Assembly: GCA_027082175.1 (NCBI GenBank)
Contig: JALWIX010000101.1
Coordinates: 1 to 35,473 of the forward strand
Length of the DNA: 35,473 nucleotides
Origin: Campylobacterales bacterium
GTDB lineage: Bacteria; Campylobacterota; Campylobacteria; Campylobacterales; Nitratiruptoraceae
Direction of reading: 5' to 3'
A model generated the notes under the pieces. That model made no database searches, was not told the DNA's origin, and saw nothing but the letters and a program-made list of their open reading frames with translations. Both the position numbers and the translations under genes were made by a program. Shown piece by piece: positions 3,872-19,600 of this stretch (positions within the stretch are counted from its first letter, which is position 1; the number at the start of each line of letters is the position of its first letter).

Positions 3872-5290
3872 CTATAAAATCACTACAGATTTTATCTCCG
3901 TAAACTCCTCTATGGCAAACTTAGGCCCTTCTCGTCCAATCCCAGAAAGTTTTACGCCTCCATACGGCTGTATGTCAAATCTAAGCGTAGGTATATCGTT
4001 TATTACCACACCTCCGGCCTCGGCATCGTCAATAAATCTTTTAGTCAATCCTAGATCATTTGTAAAAATCGAAAACTGCAATCCATAAGGCGAATCGTTC
4101 ATCTTTTTTATAGCCTCATCGTAGTTTTTAACTTTAACCAAGCTTACGATTGGAGCAAAAACCTCTTCACAAACTATTTTCATATCATCAGTTACGTCGG
4201 CTAATATCGCCGGATAAAAATACTTGCCTTCCCTTTTTGGAGGCAAAATTGCTCTAGCGCCGGCTTCAATAGCGCTATTTACCCATTTTTGGGCTCTAAT
4301 AGCCGCTTCTTCGTTTATCAAAGGCCCCATGAAAGTATCCGGTTCGTAAGGATCGCCAACTTTTAGCTTTGAAGTCTCTGTAGCTAGTTTTTGCGCAAAC
4401 TCCTCGTAAATATCCTCGTGAACATAAATTCTTTGAAGGCTTATACAAACTTGACCGCTATTTACGAACGCTCCAACAGCGCATCTACTAGCCGCATAAG
4501 ATATATCCGCGCTTTTATCTATAAAAGTCGCAGCATTTCCTCCTAATTCTAAACTTATTTTTTTAATACCGGCGCTTTTAGTAATAATCTCTCCAACTTG
4601 AACGCTTCCCGTAAAACTTATCTTTCTTGGTATCTCGCTTGTAACTAACGCGCTTCCAACTTCGGCGTCTCCATATACGACACTTAGCATATCAGCAATC
4701 GCATATTCGCTTTCAATAAATGTTTTAGCTAAAAGGTATCCCGTATACGGGGCTTCTGGCGTGGGTTTAAAAACAACGCTGTTTCCAGCGACTAACGCTG
4801 GTCCTAGTTTATGAGCCGCTAGATTTAGAGGAAAGTTAAAGGGCGTAATGGCAACTACTACGCCTACGGGGACTCTTTTATAAAAAGCCACGCTTTTTTT
4901 GCCGCTTGAAGTCGCGTCGGTATTTATAGTCTCTCCAACTAGATTAACAGCCGCTTCAGCGCTTAATTCCAATGTTTCAACGCACCTATCAACTTCTACT
5001 CTACTAAAAGTTATAGGTTTTCCTACCTCCTTTGTTATTGCTAAAGCGAACTCTTCTTTATTCTCTTTTATCTTTTTAGCCACATCTTTGATCCATTCCA
5101 CTCTTCTAGCAAGAGTAAACTCTTTACTTTTTTCAAAAGCATCTTTAGCTATTTTTAAAGCTTTCTTGGCATCTTCAGCGCTACACTTAGGAAAAATAGT
5201 AACAACTTTATCGTTAAAAGGACTCTTTATCTCCCCTTTCTCTTCTTTACTCGCCGGCATAGAACCAAAATATATCTTTGCTTCTTGCAT
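3872..5290 (-). CDS. NAD(P)-dependent aldehyde dehydrogenase
   Basis: This is an aldehyde dehydrogenase superfamily enzyme (472 aa) that oxidises an aldehyde to a carboxylate. Key residues are visible: Asn152 in TPFNFP, the general base Glu248 in SLELGGN, the catalytic nucleophile Cys282 in GQVCIS, the FTGS nucleotide-binding turn, and EEVFAP toward the C-terminus. The overall sequence resembles the lactaldehyde, succinate-semialdehyde and non-phosphorylating glyceraldehyde-3-phosphate groups; I cannot choose between them. The ATG is preceded by GAGGGG. The upstream region is shared with divergent ilvE and contains repeat copy A. Confidence 0.9.
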   Translation of the reverse strand: MQEAKIYFGSMPASKEEKGEIKSPFNDKVVTIFPKCSAEDAKKALKIAKDAFEKSKEFTLARRVEWIKDVAKKIKENKEEFALAITKEVGKPITFSRVEVDRCVETLELSAEAAVNLVGETINTDATSSGKKSVAFYKRVPVGVVVAITPFNFPLNLAAHKLGPALVAGNSVVFKPTPEAPYTGYLLAKTFIESEYAIADMLSVVYGDAEVGSALVTSEIPRKISFTGSVQVGEIITKSAGIKKISLELGGNAATFIDKSADISYAASRCAVGAFVNSGQVCISLQRIYVHEDIYEEFAQKLATETSKLKVGDPYEPDTFMGPLINEEAAIRAQKWVNSAIEAGARAILPPKREGKYFYPAILADVTDDMKIVCEEVFAPIVSLVKVKNYDEAIKKMNDSPYGLQFSIFTNDLGLTKRFIDDAEAGGVVINDIPTLRFDIQPYGGVKLSGIGREGPKFAIEEFTEIKSVVIL

Positions 5291-5322
5291 TACACACCCC
5301 TCTTTTATTCGTTAAAATAATT

Positions 5323-5502
5323 GAATGCTCTGAAAAATTACTAAATTTCGTTCAAGCGAGTTGCAATTTTTCCTTTTAGGAACGCTTGAAAATTTTATCA
5401 ATAAGTACTAAGCAAGCGTACTTTTTAGCCTTTTAGCGAATATAAATTTTAAAGCTAAAATTGCAAAGCTTTCGCTCAACTTGTAATTTTTCAGAGGTCT
5501 CA
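5323..5502 (-). repeat. Palindromic MITE-like repeat, copy A (inverted relative to copy B)
   Basis: This 180-base element starts GAATGCTCTGAAAAATTAC and ends GTAATTTTTCAGAGGTCTCA. The terminal inverted repeat is CTCTGAAAAATTAC (5328-5341 against 5483-5496). Its reverse complement aligns along its whole length with copy B at 8461-8642, by eye at roughly 80% identity with few gaps. An internal stem (GTAC/GTAC around a 9-base loop) is preserved in both copies. No open reading frame is present. It lies between divergent genes, so it cannot act simply as a terminator here. Confidence 0.85.
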
Positions 5503-5570
5503 ATTAAAATTAATGCGTAATCAAATAGTTTAATCACTAACAATTAAATTACCATCTATTTTAACCATAT

Positions 5571-5576
5571 TATAAT
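5571..5576 (+). promoter_or_regulatory. Putative -10 box of ilvE
   Basis: TATAAT lies about 100 bases upstream of the ilvE start, in an AT-rich stretch. Campylobacterota sigma70 promoters typically keep a strong -10 and lack a clear -35, which fits. It would give a leader of roughly 95 bases. No transcription evidence is available. Confidence 0.45.
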
Positions 5577-5679
5577 TTAATCAATATTTTGATAGACTTA
5601 AGCCTACTTTTAAGGTTGAAGATTGAAGGTTTAGAACTCAATCTTCTCCTTTTACTTTAAAAAAATCATGGAGAAATGG

Positions 5680-6594
5680 ATGGAAAAAGCTAAATATATC
5701 TGGATGGATGGAGATTTTGTCGAGTGGGATGAGGCAAAAGTTCACGTTCTAACACACACTCTACATTACGGAAACGGAGTTTTTGAAGGAACAAGAGCCT
5801 ATAAAACCGATAATGGACTTGCGATTTTTAGATTGAAAGATCATACAAAAAGGCTTTTGAACTCCGCAAAAATAACGGTTATAAAATGCCCTTATACATT
5901 AGATGAGCTTGAAAGAGCGCAGATAGAGCTTTTAAGAAGGAACGATTTTAAATCAAATGTCTATATAAGACCTCTTATATATCTTGGTTATGGAATAATG
6001 GGGCTATATCACGTAAAAGCTCCTGTAAACGTAGCAATCGCCGCTTGGGAATGGGGAAGCTATCTTGGGGATGACGGACTTGAAAACGGTATAAGAGTAA
6101 AAATCAGTTCATTTACAAGAAACTCCGTAAAATCAACTATGGGAAAAGCCAAAGCCGTAGCTAACTATCTAAATAGCCAAATGGCAAAATATGAAGCTCT
6201 AGAGGCCGGCTATGAAGAGGCTCTATTGCTTGATGAAGAGGGTTTTATAGCAGAAGGAAGCGGAGAGTGTTTTTTCATAGTTAGAGACGGAGTGTTAATC
6301 ACTCCTCCCAACGATAACTCTCTTGAATCGATAACTCAAGATACTGTTTTAAAAATAGCTGAAAAAAAAGGTATAAAGATTGAACGAAGAAGAATTACAA
6401 GAGATGAAGTGTATATTTGTGATGAAGCTTTCTTTACGGGTACAGCTGCGGAAGTAACACCCATAAAAGAGGTGGACGGTAGAGTCATAGGAAACGGAAA
6501 AAGAGGAGAAATAACAAGAGAGCTTCAAAGCGCATACTTTGATGTGGTATATGGAAGAGATAAAGATTTTGAATATATGTTGACATATATTTAG
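5680..6594 (+). CDS. ilvE: Branched-chain amino acid aminotransferase
   Basis: This class IV PLP aminotransferase interconverts leucine, isoleucine and valine with their 2-oxo acids using glutamate/2-oxoglutarate. The product (304 aa from this start) has THTLHYGNGVFEGTRAY, the substrate-loop region, MGKAKAVANYLNSQMAK containing the probable PLP lysine, EEALLLDEEGFIAEGSGE, and the C-terminal FFTGTAAEVTPI. The ATG at 5680 is chosen over the in-frame ATG at 5668 because GGAG sits 6 bases before it, and because IlvE proteins usually begin close to KYIWMDG. It starts a plus-strand cassette with the SPFH gene and hisIE; the same ilvE-prohibitin pair occurs in C. jejuni. Confidence 0.95.
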   Translation: MEKAKYIWMDGDFVEWDEAKVHVLTHTLHYGNGVFEGTRAYKTDNGLAIFRLKDHTKRLLNSAKITVIKCPYTLDELERAQIELLRRNDFKSNVYIRPLIYLGYGIMGLYHVKAPVNVAIAAWEWGSYLGDDGLENGIRVKISSFTRNSVKSTMGKAKAVANYLNSQMAKYEALEAGYEEALLLDEEGFIAEGSGECFFIVRDGVLITPPNDNSLESITQDTVLKIAEKKGIKIERRRITRDEVYICDEAFFTGTAAEVTPIKEVDGRVIGNGKRGEITRELQSAYFDVVYGRDKDFEYMLTYI

Positions 6595-6650
6595 ATGTAG
6601 GTTGACGTTTAACTACTCAACCAATTTCAACTATTGTTACTAAACTAAAG
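6595..6650. repeat. Degenerate heptamer-like repeat after ilvE
   Basis: Immediately after the ilvE stop lies a short segment with a GTTGA / TCAAC fold-back and the words ACTACTCAACCAATTT and AACTA. Related words (ACTACTCAA, CCAATTT, AACT) occur just after the dapB stop and in the array beside rsmI. The 7-base phase is weak here. I interpret it as a decayed member of the heptamer arrays. Confidence 0.4.
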
Positions 6651-6664
6651 CAAAAGGAGATTTA

Positions 6665-7717
6665 ATGCCGGCCGATCTAAACGATTACTTTAAAAAGAAA
6701 AGAGATGAAGAGGATAACGACAACAATATGCCTGATTTCATAAAAGATTTTGGTAAAAAAGCCACATATATTTATGTGATTATTGTTCTGCTTGTTTTGA
6801 TTGTTATAGCAAAACCATACGCTATTATAAACTCTGGAGAAGTGGGCATAAAAGTAACTGCGGGTAAATATGACCCAATCCCGCTAGAGCCAGGAATCCA
6901 TTTTTATATCCCAGGAATTCAAAAAATCATCAAAGTTGATACAAAAGTGAGGATTATTAACTATAAAGCCGAACGCGACACCGCTTTTGGAAATGTAAAC
7001 GCAGGAATTATAGAAAAACCAGCTATCCAAGTTTTAGACGCTAGAGGACTTCCCGTATCCATAGATTTAACCGTTCAATACAAACTAAACCCTCAAGGCG
7101 CGCCGCAAACCATAGCTACCTGGGGGCTTGCTTGGGAAGAAAAGATAATAAACGCGGTCGTTAGAGAGGTAGTAAGAAACGTTGTCGGGCGCTACAAAGC
7201 GGAAGAGCTTCCTATAAAAAGAAACGAAATCGCAAAACTTATAGAGTCTCAAATAAGAGAAAAAATAAGCTCTTTGCCTAATAAACCCGTAGAACTAGTC
7301 GCAGTTCAGTTAAGAGAGATCTCTTTGCCACCTAAAATAAAAGAGCAGATTGAAAGAGTTCAAATAGCCAAACAGGAAGCGGAAAGAGTAAAATACGAAG
7401 TTGAAAGAGCAAGGCAAGAGGCGGAAAAAAGAGCTGCATTAGCTAAAGGTGAAGCTGAAGCTAAAAAGATTAGAGCTCAAGGTGAAGCCGATAAAATCAT
7501 TATCGAAGCGAAAGCTCAAGCCCAAGCAAATTTGGAAATTGGAAAAAGTATAACTCCGGAATTGTTACATCTTAAACAGTTAGAAGTTCAAGGTAAATTT
7601 AACGAAGCTCTAAAAACAAACAAAGATGCTAAGATATTTCTTACTCCTGGCGGAGCTGTTCCTAATATATGGATTGACGCAAAAGATAAACAAAAAACTA
7701 CATCGGCTCAAAAATAG
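6665..7717 (+). CDS. SPFH/prohibitin-family membrane protein
   Basis: The 350-residue protein has a hydrophilic N-terminus, one membrane span at about residues 33-49, and then an SPFH (band 7) domain starting INSGEVGIKVTAGKYD. The domain contains LDARGLPVSIDLTVQYKL, and an Ala/Glu/Lys-rich helical coiled coil follows at about 220-290. Prohibitin-like proteins form large ring oligomers on the membrane and often modulate FtsH-type proteases or lipid domains. The role here is inferred from family only. The start has an ideal AAAGGAG. The neighbour ilvE is conserved with it in C. jejuni. Its stop codon is embedded in a strong hairpin leading to hisIE. Confidence 0.9.
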   Translation: MPADLNDYFKKKRDEEDNDNNMPDFIKDFGKKATYIYVIIVLLVLIVIAKPYAIINSGEVGIKVTAGKYDPIPLEPGIHFYIPGIQKIIKVDTKVRIINYKAERDTAFGNVNAGIIEKPAIQVLDARGLPVSIDLTVQYKLNPQGAPQTIATWGLAWEEKIINAVVREVVRNVVGRYKAEELPIKRNEIAKLIESQIREKISSLPNKPVELVAVQLREISLPPKIKEQIERVQIAKQEAERVKYEVERARQEAEKRAALAKGEAEAKKIRAQGEADKIIIEAKAQAQANLEIGKSITPELLHLKQLEVQGKFNEALKTNKDAKIFLTPGGAVPNIWIDAKDKQKTTSAQK

Positions 7718-7736
7718 GCATACGCCTTTTGAGCCG
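7704..7736 (+). promoter_or_regulatory. Intercistronic hairpin spanning the SPFH-gene stop codon
   Basis: CGGCTCAAAA (7704-7713) pairs perfectly with TTTTGAGCCG (7727-7736). An inner GGC/GCC pair closes an ATAC loop, with a 3-base bulge. The stop codon TAG (7715-7717) is inside the hairpin, and the hisIE ribosome site AAGGAA follows directly. There is no T-run after it, so it is more likely an mRNA processing, stability or coupling element than a terminator. Confidence 0.6.
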
Positions 7737-7748
7737 TAAGGAAATACG

Positions 7749-8423
7749 ATGCAATTTGAGATAGATTGGCAAAAAAATCCTCTTATGCCCGTGGTTGTAC
7801 AAGATATAGATACAAACGAAGTTTTGATGCTGGCTTATATGAATAAAGAAGCTCTAGATAAAACTCTCTCAACAGGCTATGCCCATTACTACTCAAGAAG
7901 CAGAGAAAAACTTTGGAAAAAGGGCGAAACAAGCGGAAATATCCAAAAAGTGGAAGAGATTTTTTTAGATTGCGATTCTGATACTATTTTGTTAAAAGTA
8001 AAACAAAAAGGGCCAGCTTGTCATACGGGAAGAAAATCTTGCTTTTATAAAAACCTAAAAAACGCTCAAATTATCTCCGAACCAGAAATTGAGCCTTCAT
8101 TGATGTATGAAAATGTTATAGATGTTCTTTACCATACAATTTTGGAAAAAAAAGAGAGCGATCCTGAAAAATCTTGGACGGCAAAACTTTTTAAAAAGGG
8201 TGAAAACACTATTTTAAAAAAAGTTATGGAAGAGGCAGCAGAGTTCTGTTTTGCCGTAAAAGATAAAAATAAAAAAGAGATAATATACGAATGCGCTGAT
8301 CTTGTGTATCACTCTTTAGTAGCCTTAGCTTATTCGAACATATCGCCCGAACTTGTTAAAAAAGAGCTTAAAAGAAGATTTGGAGTAAGCGGAATAGAAG
8401 AGAAAAGAAATAGAAAAGAGTAG
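7749..8423 (+). CDS. hisIE: Bifunctional phosphoribosyl-AMP cyclohydrolase / phosphoribosyl-ATP pyrophosphatase
   Basis: This enzyme catalyses steps 2 and 3 of histidine biosynthesis in one 224-residue chain. The N-terminal HisI half has the metal-binding LDCDSDT segment and GPACHTGRKSCF with its zinc/catalytic cysteines. The C-terminal HisE half starts near VLYHTILEKKES and has the MazG-like acidic helix VMEEAAEFCFAVKD plus YECADLVYHSLVAL. The length is normal for the fusion. The ATG is preceded by TAAGGAAATACG. It follows the SPFH gene by 31 bases and is the last gene before repeat copy B. No other his genes are in the window. Confidence 0.95.
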   Translation: MQFEIDWQKNPLMPVVVQDIDTNEVLMLAYMNKEALDKTLSTGYAHYYSRSREKLWKKGETSGNIQKVEEIFLDCDSDTILLKVKQKGPACHTGRKSCFYKNLKNAQIISEPEIEPSLMYENVIDVLYHTILEKKESDPEKSWTAKLFKKGENTILKKVMEEAAEFCFAVKDKNKKEIIYECADLVYHSLVALAYSNISPELVKKELKRRFGVSGIEEKRNRKE

Positions 8424-8460
8424 ATATTGGATATTGTAAAGAGGTTTGATTTTAATGTAT

Positions 8461-8642
8461 TGAGACCTCTGAAAAATTACAAATTGAACGAAGGATTTGA
8501 AATTTTAGCTTGAAAATTTTATGTTCGCCAAAAGGCTAAAAAAGTGCGCTTGTTTAGCACTTTTTAATAAAATTTACAAGCGTTAGTTTTACTAAAAATT
8601 TCAACTCTCCTGAGTGAAATTTTGTAATTTTTCAGAGCATTC
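8461..8642 (+). repeat. Palindromic MITE-like repeat, copy B
   Basis: This 182-base element runs from TGAGACCTCTGAAAAATTAC to the GCATTC end. It has a 17-bp perfect terminal inverted repeat, CTCTGAAAAATTACAAA (8467-8483 against 8621-8637). Inside, AAAAAGTGC pairs with GCACTTTTT around a 9-base loop. The reverse complement of copy A aligns along its entire length. It lies downstream of hisIE, while copy A lies upstream of ilvE in opposite orientation, so the pair brackets the three-gene plus-strand cassette. There is no coding capacity, so any movement would need an enzyme supplied elsewhere. Confidence 0.85.
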
Positions 8643-8785
8643 TATTAATAAAACTTTCTAAAAATTTCAAATTAAACGAAGACTTTTTTCTCGCTTCACC
8701 GCGAGGCTTTAGTTTTACTAACGCTCAAACACTAGCCAGACAGAAGTCGTCTTCCGTTTGGCTAGTGTTAAAATTTAAAACTAAA
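8643..8785 (+). repeat. Degenerate relative of the palindromic repeat containing a long hairpin
   Basis: This segment shares exact words with copy B: CTAAAAATTTCAA (8658-8670, as at 8592-8604) and TTAGTTTTACTA (8709-8720, as at 8583-8594). The order of the two words is reversed compared with copy B. It contains a separate hairpin: AACACTAGCCA (8728-8738) against TGGCTAGTGTT (8759-8769), continuing through a mostly paired inner stem to a TCGT loop. An outer pairing of TTTAGTTTT (8708-8716) with AAAACTAAA (8777-8785) is also possible. Confidence 0.6.
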
Positions 8786-8836
8786 AAATTTTGACTCTTT
8801 TATCTTCATTAAACAGATAAAAAAGGGATTATACGC

Positions 8837-9490
8837 ATGAAAAAAGTTATAATTTTTTTACTTTTGACAATTGCTGCTATAGCAAATGAATATGTATTAG
8901 CGATTCAGTGGTTTCCTTCTGTTTGTAAAGTAAAAAACTATAATGAGTGTAAAAAAGATATGCCATTTTGGCGATCAAACTTTACTATTCACGGCTTATG
9001 GCCTAAAAAAAAGTATTGTAACGTTTCGGCTAGAGAAAAGATATTAGACAAAAAGAGAGAGTGGCAAAAGATACCGCTTAAAATATCTCCATACCTAAGC
9101 GAACTTATAGCTACCTATATGCCAGGGTATATCTCCGGACTACATAAACATGAATGGGTAAAACATGGCACATGTTATAGCAAAAGTCCCGAAAAATACT
9201 TTTTAGATACAATCTCTTTGGTATCGCAGTTAAACACCTCAAAAGTTAAAGAGTTTTTTTTAAAAAATAGAGGCAAAAGAGTCCAAACTATCAAAATAAG
9301 AAAAGTATTCGATAAAGAGTTTGGCGAAGGAAGCGGCAAAAAAGTAAAATTTATCTGTAAAGAAGGGTATCTAACGGAACTTAGAATTAACCTTAAAGGT
9401 AAAATCGTTCCAAATACTCCTTTATACGATCTTTTGCAGCACTCTAAAAAAACCTCGATCGGTTGTAAAATAGGATTAATCGCTAGATAA
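8837..9490 (+). CDS. RNase T2-family ribonuclease, exported
   Basis: This is an acid-type endoribonuclease of the T2 family, predicted to act in the periplasm or outside the cell. The 217-residue precursor has a Lys-Lys start, a hydrophobic stretch and a probable cleavage after about Ala16. Both catalytic segments are present: FTIHGLWPKK with His52, and KHEWVKHGTC with Glu106 and His110. Several cysteines could form disulfides in the periplasm. AAGGGA is the only ribosome site and lies a long 10 bases from the ATG. It is an isolated plus-strand gene, preceded by the repeat region and convergent with the next gene. It could scavenge RNA. Confidence 0.9.
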   Translation: MKKVIIFLLLTIAAIANEYVLAIQWFPSVCKVKNYNECKKDMPFWRSNFTIHGLWPKKKYCNVSAREKILDKKREWQKIPLKISPYLSELIATYMPGYISGLHKHEWVKHGTCYSKSPEKYFLDTISLVSQLNTSKVKEFFLKNRGKRVQTIKIRKVFDKEFGEGSGKKVKFICKEGYLTELRINLKGKIVPNTPLYDLLQHSKKTSIGCKIGLIAR

Positions 9491-14296: not shown

Positions 14297-14345
14297 CTAT
14301 GGATGAAAAGTTGTTTGAAGTTGCGAAGTATATATGAGTATTGAA

Positions 14346-14398
14346 CCCTCTGAATAAATAGAAATTGAGTGAAATTTGCTATTTATTCGTAACACTCT
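14346..14398 (-). repeat. Short hairpin element resembling a deleted palindromic repeat
   Basis: GAATAAATAG (14352-14361) pairs with CTATTTATTC (14379-14388), and AAATT/AATTT extends the stem across a GAGTGA loop. The flanks CCTCTGA on the left and AACACTCT on the right resemble the ends of repeat copies A and B. The centre AAATTGAGTGAAATTT matches the two inner edges of copy B joined together. It lies after the yraN stop, so it might also act as a 3' stem, but there is no T-run. Confidence 0.55.
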
Positions 14399-14415
14399 AT
14401 TTTTAAAAACAAACT

Positions 14416-14742: not shown

Positions 14743-14755
14743 GAAAGTCCTTTTA

Positions 14756-14846
14756 GTGACGGGTAATCAGTGATGAGTGATTAGTAATGAGTGATCAGTG
14801 ATGGGTAATGAATTCACTAATCACTGCTCACTGATTACTGTTCACT
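14756..14846. repeat. Array of 13 degenerate 7-bp repeats, head-to-head
   Basis: The segment divides exactly into 13 consecutive heptamers. Eight are of the type GTRAYNR (for example GTGATGA, GTAATCA) and five are of the reverse-complement type (ATTCACT, AATCACT, GCTCACT, GATTACT, GTTCACT). Phase is unbroken across the switch, so the array can fold into a long imperfect hairpin. The fdh stop codon TGA (14844-14842) lies inside the last unit, and the other end comes within about 14 bases of the yraN start. Similar arrays lie at 19531-19600 and 22040-22148. Confidence 0.85.
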
Positions 14847-18307: not shown

Positions 18308-19519
18308 TTAGCTTCGGTAATTTTTCAAAAATTTTTTAATATTTCTTGCTGCTTGTCTGATCCTCTTTTCATTTTCTATAAGAGCTATTCTCACATAGTT
18401 TTCACCATACTCACCAAAACCCACACCTGGACTTACAGCGACTTTTGCTTCAGTTAAAAGTTTTTTGCTAAACTCAAGACTGCCTATCTGTTCAAACTCT
18501 TTAGGGATTTTTGCCCATACGAACATTGTGGCTTTAGGTTTTGATATCTGCCAACCAGCTCTTGAAAAACTATCTATCAAAACGTCCCTTCTCTTTTCAT
18601 ATTTGTTTCTAATCTCTTCTACGCAATCTTGAGGACCGTTCAAAGCTACGGTAGCGGCGACTTGTATAGGAGTGAACATTCCGTAATCTATCCAGCTTTT
18701 TATCTTTTGCAAAGCGCCTACAAGTTTTTTGTTGCCAACAATAAAACCTACTCTCCAACCGGCCATATTGTAGCTTTTAGAGAGTGTAAAACTCTCGATC
18801 GCCACATCTTTTGCGCCGTCTACTTGTAAAATAGACGGGGTTTTGTATTCGTCGAAAGTAAGATCGGCATAAGCAATATCGCTCAATATATAAAACCTCT
18901 CTTTTTTGGCGATTTTTACCAGCTCTTTATAAAAGTCAAGAGTTACGGTAGCCGTAGAAGGATTGTGCGGAAAGTTTACAACTAGATATTTAGGCTTAGG
19001 AAAAGCGTCATTTAACGCTTGATGAAGATTTTTAAAAAATTGCTCCTCATCCACCTCATAATTTTCATCAAAAGGTAGCTTCATCTTCTGAACACTCCCG
19101 CCAGCCAATATAAACGCGTAAGAGTGGATAGGATATGTTGGATCTGGCACTATTGCCACATCGCCTGGGTTTGTAATCGCCTGAACAAGATGGACATAAC
19201 CCTCTTTGCTTCCCATCGTAGCTACCGCCTCATATTCAGGATCAAGAGCGACAGAGTATCTTCTTTCATACCAATTGCAAATAGCTAGTCTAAGTTTATA
19301 GATGCCTTTACTTGCGCTATATCCGTGATTTTTAGGTTTTTGTGCAGACTCTATAAGTTTATCTATGATATGTTTTGGTGCCGGGCCATCAGGATTTCCC
19401 ATACTAAAATCTATAATATCTTCTCCGGCTCTTCTTGCGGCCATTTTGATCTCATTTACAGCGGCAAACACATATTTTGGAAGTCTGTCGATTTTGTTGA
19501 ATCTTATCTCATCAAACAT
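18308..19519 (-). CDS. Class I/II PLP aminotransferase (alanine/LL-diaminopimelate type)
   Basis: This is a fold-type I aminotransferase of 403 residues from the chosen start. [14 protein letters not shown] contains the PLP Lys248; [27 protein letters not shown] and [10 protein letters not shown] line the active site. Close homologues in Campylobacterota are variously labelled LL-diaminopimelate, aspartate or alanine aminotransferase; sequence alone does not decide. The ATG at 19519 (MFDEIRF) has AAGGAAAA upstream. The frame runs 18 codons further upstream, but those residues are encoded by the heptamer repeat and are not credible protein. Neighbour hom and the distant dapB suggest aspartate-family amino acid work. 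Confidence 0.9.
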
Positions 19520-19530
19520 TGTTTTCCTTG

Positions 19531-19600
19531 GTAAATAGTAATTAGTGATCAGTGATGAGTAATCGGTAATCACTCATCACTCATCACTTACATTAGTTAC
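19531..19600. repeat. Array of about 10 degenerate 7-bp repeats, head-to-head
   Basis: Successive heptamers read GTAAATA, GTAATTA, GTGATCA, GTGATGA, GTAATCG, GTAATCA, then switch to CTCATCA, CTCATCA, CTTACAT, TAGTTAC. It is the same GTRAT-type unit as at 14756-14846. The two arms can pair. It reaches exactly to the TAG stop (19602-19600) of the next gene and lies about 11 bases from the aminotransferase start, so it fills the whole space between the two genes. Confidence 0.8.

Follow-up and report, generated by a model that had tools for sequence, protein, structure and literature searches.

Independent insertions of a short MITE-type repeat beside the ilvE-SPFH-hisIE cluster of a Campylobacterales bacterium, and the hairpin core of its family

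Two inverted copies of a short palindromic repeat, here called A and B, flank the genes ilvE, SPFH and hisIE in a Campylobacterales bacterium of the family Nitratiruptoraceae (GenBank assembly GCA_027082175.1, contig JALWIX010000101.1, positions 1 to 35,473; these 35,473 nucleotides are referred to below as the window). Copies A and B are very probably two independent insertions of one short, non-autonomous family of the miniature inverted-repeat transposable element (MITE) type, and the three genes between them are a native gene cluster and not mobile cargo. As is typical of MITEs (50-500 bp), the elements are small (179 and 181 bp), lack a transposase gene, possess inverted ends and a target duplication, and occur as dispersed intergenic copies. 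An original prediction made from the window alone had suggested a non-autonomous mobile element, and this has held up well, given the copy number, the inverted ends, the 4-bp duplications, a site that is unfilled in the sister genome G003 and a decayed insertion sequence (IS) with the same ends.

Copies A and B and the genes between them

The relationship of A and B as inverted copies of one element, as first proposed, is clear from their alignment. When B is reverse-complemented, the pair scores 121, whereas 1000 dinucleotide-preserving shuffles of A average 7.1 (standard deviation 2.9) and never exceed 21.5; BLAST returns an E value of 4.5e-52 at 84% identity, and the two have an identical run of 24 bp in common. 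The boundaries originally assigned (5323-5502 and 8461-8642) were nearly correct and have been refined to 5323-5501 and 8462-8642, with the ends taken from the sequence and, for A, also from the unfilled site of G003. The ends of both copies, GAATGCTCTGAAAAATTAC and GAGACCTCTGAAAAATTAC, are near-identical when inverted and form terminal inverted repeats of 19 bp with mismatches at positions 3-5. The outer hexamers described earlier were roughly right, except that each copy really has two unlike ends, GAATGC.. and GAGACC.., while the repeat CTCTGAAAAATTAC is indeed present in both copies, as an inner repeat. Neither copy contains an open reading frame (ORF) of 80 aa or more, and each folds end to end into one long, imperfect, branched hairpin, in which a stem followed by a T run is found on both strands.

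The insertion history can be read from sister genomes, where target duplications and empty sites were sought as the original prediction had advised. G003, whose SPFH protein is 98% identical to that of the window, carries B in the same place and orientation, and its A site is unfilled, reading ..TAATTAAAATTAATG.. where the window reads ..TAATT[A]AATTAAAATTAATG..; flanking pairs of AATT (A) and TATT (B) complete the picture. Since G003 lacks A yet carries B, the two copies were inserted separately. Moreover, because G001 and G002 have neither copy at the locus, the insertion of B would predate the divergence from G003 and that of A would follow it, provided that no precise excision took place. 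A and B are also not the paired ends of a composite transposon, since each has its own duplication and A resembles a copy at another G003 locus more (92% identity) than it resembles B (only 84%). A composite transposon should have one duplication outside both copies and a cassette that is absent or located elsewhere in relatives, and neither was found here.

The gene order ilvE-SPFH-hisIE and its orientation are kept in all nine stretches retrieved from relatives (G003, G001, G002, G007, G006, G005, G012, G004 and G017). A divergent aldehyde dehydrogenase gene adjoins ilvE in eight of the nine, with the contig of G004 ending at that point, and an RNase T2-like gene follows hisIE in six; the latter was not found in G005 or G004, and the G017 contig ends within hisIE. 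Partial views of two more genomes with an SPFH match showed SPFH-hisIE-RNase T2 in the same order (G016) and, in another family, ilvE and SPFH together with no hisIE seen within 1.5 kb (G023). Seven of the nine relatives possess no element at the locus, as judged by BLAST and by R1, a covariance model built from 36 copies, drawn from the genus of the window and from a second genus (g3); the lone match, at chance level (E 0.16), lies elsewhere in stretch L104. The two relatives with an element are G003 (B only) and G017, whose element is related but differs in its ends. A's site lies off the contig in G004, as does B's site in G017.

The element of G017 (L107:2433-2647; R1 E 1.3e-22) is situated between ilvE and the dehydrogenase gene, and it occupies the same intergenic space as A.

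Dispersal, target sites and a decayed IS5-type relative

A search of the window's own genome and its relatives, also proposed originally, uncovered dispersed copies in both. In the former, 30 places match A (BLAST, E<=1e-3), with 40 of 62 candidates scored and at least one place counted twice, since two contigs overlap at their ends, so that C95:10888 and C60:3902 represent a single site. Many copies were likewise found with A in G003 and G002, and weak matches alone in G001 and G004 (best E 0.51 and 0.018, respectively), all four genomes being of the same genus. Ends of the kind carried by A (set I; Table 1) also enclose a different interior in the window's genome; these elements have GTGTGGG-type arms and measure 121-134 bp. 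The genome also contains palindromes of 55-78 bp that consist of the ends only. Internal deletions would leave short relics such as the third copy in the window, which sits between trxA-like and YraN-like genes (names from translations).

The genomic setting was examined for 35 copies (20 from G003, eight from G000, which is the window's genome, and seven from G002) using simple ORF picking without a gene finder; long-central-insert, contig-end and doubled copies were omitted from this set, from the 36 copies of the alignment, or from both. Overlap with a predicted ORF stays within 60 bases in 34 of the 35 cases, the single exception being a doubtful ORF, and the neighboring genes are co-directional for 27 copies, divergent for five and convergent for three. 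The target duplication is 4 bp in length and mostly AATT. Identical left and right 4-mers flank 26 of 57 end pairs, versus 14.6 expected by cross-pairing, in a loose scan that includes some false pairs and counts orthologous sites of sister genomes separately; among the pairs with a left 4-mer other than AATT, 4 of 29 match (three sites), versus 0.5 expected.

Searches of wider collections yielded little. The exact pattern of perfect ends 100-130 bases apart had no matches, the real spacing being larger; the plasmid collection held no match to A, and no viral contig had the end pattern. Four genome contigs did, in a collection that possibly lacks near relatives of the window's genome. Three of these lie in unrelated phyla and were taken as chance, and R1 found no match in the genomes behind the four contigs, in a search that had no positive control. 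In the fourth contig (L143), from a metagenome-assembled genome of the Campylobacteraceae, set I-like ends surround a different, GC-richer hairpin (L143:4628-4765; R1 E 0.52).

An IS5-type DDE transposase acting in trans probably moved the set I elements, and a decayed element of the likely mobilizing kind is seen in G003. There, a 1177-bp element (L116:1065-2241) possesses the ends GAATCCTCTGAAAAA and GAGTCCTCTAAAAAATTAA with AATT on each side, and in the 0.96 Mb scanned no other such ends face inward at a distance of 0.6-2.6 kb (at most one mismatch per end, AATT included; the pair was listed twice since L116 and L117 overlap). Its transposase gene is broken, and an open 104-aa piece matches DDE_Tnp_1 (E 2.7e-10) and the NCBIfam IS5 family transposase model NF033581 (E 5.2e-17, 62 bits). 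A second, truncated relative in G003 (L118:1306 onwards) starts with AATT-GAACCCTCTGAA, and its 174-aa piece matches NF033581 (E 2.2e-32, 113 bits) and is 51% identical to the L116 piece over 72 residues; the inward-pair scan found no right end for it, and the plasmid collection held no match to its transposase piece. The L116 element resembles the set I family in its ends and its flanking AATT, and its broken transposase matches the IS5 family model. It differs in its length, in having a transposase gene and in an interior without the hairpin core, and the similarity of the ends fades past ~15-18 bases. The autonomous counterpart expected of a MITE, sharing its ends and duplication, was found in decayed form only, and in G003. 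Another candidate partner, L199, with ends 1.66 kb apart, turned out to be an ordinary gene; ORFs were read in 4 of the 20 stretches retrieved for this hunt.

Several points weigh against the reading of A and B as transposed MITEs served by such a partner. Transposition is itself deduced from sequence comparison, and because AATT is a favored target, identical flanks partly reflect site preference. Furthermore, the L116 element is broken, and both NF033581 matches fall below the curated cut-off of 140 bits. No intact autonomous partner was found, and the only DDE_Tnp_1 match of the window's own genome lacks set I ends, both results coming from a transposase search with PF01609 only.

Table 1. 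Coordinates and characteristics of features in the window
Feature	Position	Strand	Remarks
Copy A	5323-5501	+	179 bp; short form of hairpin core, set I ends; absent from sister genome G003
A left target duplication AATT	5319-5322	.	one AATT in unfilled G003 site, two here
A right target duplication AATT	5502-5505	.	same comparison with G003
A inner stem AAGTAC..GTACTT, then T run	5403-5423	.	B counterpart AAGTGC..GCACTT; compensated variation among copies
Copy B	8462-8642	-	181 bp; inverted relative to A; same place in G003
B left target duplication TATT	8458-8461	.	read from sequence and flanking 4-mer scan
B right target duplication TATT	8643-8646	.	read from sequence and flanking 4-mer scan
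Third, short copy	14343-14397	-	55 bp; interior lost, TATT each side; R1 match 14335-14405, E 4.1e-8
Set I ends			motif GANNNCTCTGAAAA, 4-bp duplications
ilvE	5668-6594	+	name read from translation
SPFH-domain protein gene	6665-7717	+	name read from translation
hisIE	7749-8423	+	name read from translation
RNase T2-like ORF	8837-9490	+	after B; name read from translation

Two further features of the window deserve mention. Just past B, positions 8655-8800 contain pieces resembling the element interior (TAGTTTTACTAACGCT) and a hairpin at 8726-8771, with an R1 match at 8708-8784 (E 0.046), and this region is perhaps a decayed additional copy. In addition, imperfect 7-base repeats (AGTGATN) occur in direct and inverted order at 14754-14846 and 19529-19591, both intergenic; one of these arrays overruns the listed start of the ORF at 18308-19573, the true start of which may lie further in.

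A hairpin core on unlike ends

A hand-completed, 66-pair structure over the 36 aligned copies has 93.8% of its cells paired, a percentage that is biased since the structure was derived from the same sequences. A stronger sign is the double changes: 38 of the 66 pairs have changed on both sides with pairing kept, and double-change cells number 134, versus 35.8 in shuffles and no more than 22 in slid controls. These compensated changes could result from selection on a single-strand hairpin or from template-switch correction of the palindrome.

Across the order, R1 had matches in 20 out of 199 genomes sampled, representing 10 of 70 genera and five families. Of 200 genomes sampled across the phylum, four matched, and every one of them was already known and belongs to the window's family. 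For searches over more than 40 genomes, about 11 candidates were scored per genome, and the counts are thus lower bounds. The matched elements carry several kinds of ends. Set I-like ends (CTCTGAAAA, with few differences) were found on 7/7 copies in G110, 2/3 in G098 (where one copy has decayed ends), 5/5 in G200, 2/2 in G190 and 0/5 in G042. The G042 copies, together with one in G170, instead have set II ends (AACTGACCTTACGCA-like), while set III ends (GGNACTGACTAAATA-like) were detected by a loose scan at 18 of 19 loci in G006, G007, G008, G009, G116, G147 and G157. Finally, one copy in G142 and one in G202 carry ends outside these three sets (set IV), and the two copies are mutually unlike in detail.

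Set III elements appear to be flanked by a longer duplication. Flanking 8-mers match at 7-8 positions in 6 of 18 copies, versus 0 of 306 cross pairs, with nine settings of offset and length tried and the one locus of 19 without an end pair dropped; the six copies represent four sites, as the flanks identify L217 with L218 and L226 with L230. On the speculative reading given below, in which the core changes vehicles, the sets with 4-bp (IS5-type) and 8-bp duplications would probably be moved by unrelated transposases.

A second model, R2, was built from 17 set III copies only and is the better control. It matches elements of sets I, II and IV as well, mostly along the full length of the model. 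The best E values were 1.5e-12 for an irregular-ended copy, 1.5e-11 for set II and 3.6e-10 for set I, compared to nothing below E 0.7 for a control of 11 loci with other hairpins. We read this as a putatively homologous core shared by at least three unlike sets of ends, the alternative being convergence of AT-rich palindromes. Certain results argue against such wide sharing. R1 also matches elements of other interior through common ends (L030 at E 5e-8, L029 at 5e-6 and L164 at 1e-5, with L133, L129 and L126 weaker), and the 20 genomes include at least one, G152, whose L164 matches by its ends only, as well as weak matches in f16, G006, G009, G142 and G202. Similarly, the two best matches of R2 are irregular-ended copies whose genus also contributes some of the set III copies, and R2 is weak on several short-form copies, among them A (E 0.0046) and one G003 copy (0.014). 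In the L164 element of G152, ends resembling set I (TTGAGTGTTCTGAACAAACATACTT) enclose an interior that is short and different.

The converse arrangement, unlike interiors between the same ends, was observed at orthologous sites of the window's genome and G003. At one site (C115 in G000, L030:1507-1634; 794 kb in G003, L067:2395-2575), the flanks align and both genomes have AATT and set I ends, around 128 bp with GTGTGGG arms in G000 versus a 181-bp hairpin core in G003. At another (C72, L129:1577-1710; 1801 kb, L078:3440-3620), the ends are again the same and the interiors unlike, and the left AATT plus one base has been lost in G000. Exchange through common ends, or loss followed by re-insertion at the same target, would explain these pairs. 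A third site holds a short relic in G000 (C58) versus a full copy in G003 (1511 kb); the BLAST blocks overlap by ~22 bases, as for a deletion between direct repeats. It is conceivable, if on balance doubtful, that the core changes vehicles, such that the persisting unit would be the core, parasitic or useful, with disposable ends and with interiors exchanged in place.

Alternative explanations and known repeat families

The original prediction went further than a mobile repeat, in that A and B were thought to bracket exactly the plus-strand genes and possibly to have flipped or moved the cassette by recombination. An inversion of this type is physically possible, as the copies are inverted and have a 24-bp identical run, and the cassette does run opposite to most neighboring genes. 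However, the orientation is the same in 9/9 relatives' stretches, seven of them element-free at the locus, which is the very observation that had been named in advance as contradicting the idea, and the partial view of G016 shows the same gene order. B also lies within the plus-strand block and not at its edge, because a fourth plus-strand gene follows it and follows hisIE in six of the nine relatives. With separate target duplications, different ages and 84% identity as well, the inversion or import of the cassette by A and B, whether as inverted repeats or as composite-transposon ends, is highly improbable; it is refuted for the fixed state, and inversion at low frequency within the population is possible. 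A chance pair of hairpins without common origin might be suggested by the fact that both copies are AT-rich intergenic palindromes, but the likelihood of this is vanishingly small in view of the alignment score, which no shuffle approached, and the dozens of dispersed copies.

A more serious proposal is that selection maintains the hairpin core as a functional RNA or as a transcription stop acting in both directions, with mobility being secondary. The compensated changes throughout the stem, the occurrence of related cores across five families, the stem and T run on both strands, and the UUCG-type loops in several hairpin branches would all be in keeping with such a role, UUCG loops being known to stabilize RNA. 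On the other hand, the 27 copies between co-directional genes include some in closely spaced pairs, where a strong stop would be costly, and a hand count of 17 such G003 copies gave a mixed orientation, seven with the gene direction and ten against it. A simple scan detected four terminator-like sites in 3.6 kb, versus 2.7 in shuffles, and only one was inside an element. No Rfam family came near its gathering score, as the models had just two matches in positions 5200-8900, both outside A and B (E 0.7; 21.6 bits versus a gathering score of 74). Moreover, template-switch correction of palindromes could yield the compensated changes without selection on function. A functional RNA or transcription stop is therefore considered unlikely, and independent insertion of a MITE-type family is preferred.

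REP sequences and REPINs are accompanied by a RAYT transposase gene in the genome and do not generate a target duplication; the duplication found here speaks against membership in that group. Bacterial MITEs are described as being 50-500 bp in length, with terminal repeats, target duplications, AT-rich intergenic sites and stable stem-loops (PMC10969869). The present family differs in how its parts combine, since a given kind of interior is found with several unlike ends and a given kind of end with several unlike interiors, and such mixing is without mention in the available portions of PMC10969869 and PMC2229807. Correia elements (NEMIS) of Neisseria are likewise short and MITE-type, with inverted ends, a conserved core and a stem-loop transcript (PMC2649163, PMC2229807), and the present elements share this general design. 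By description, to which the comparison is confined, Correia ends are 24 bp with TA at the termini (PMC2229807, Table 1), whereas those here are 19 bp with a 4-bp duplication that is mostly AATT. ERIC (IRU) of enterobacteria, again compared by description only, also falls in the 100-200 bp range and folds into a stable stem-loop, but it measures 127 bp and has TA at its termini (PMC2229807). The TA typical of both families (PMC2229807) is replaced by AATT or TATT in A and B. The SPRITE, BOX and RUP elements of Streptococcus pneumoniae are likewise mobile repeats of small size, and one of them resembles a terminator (PMC10969869); here, the terminator-like stem lies within a larger branched hairpin, and the available descriptions give no sign of a relation. 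A search by title and abstract start, with most subscription journals outside its reach, found no paper describing the family.

With a false lead removed, the ilvE-SPFH-hisIE cluster stands as an old and stable gene neighborhood. The repeat family, for its part, offers an unfilled site, insertions that can be placed in order, an IS5-type relative with the same ends in decayed form, and related interiors that occur with different ends. If the sharing of the core is true, ends alone are not a sound basis for classifying MITE families, and the passage of interiors between transposition systems would become testable at orthologous sites.

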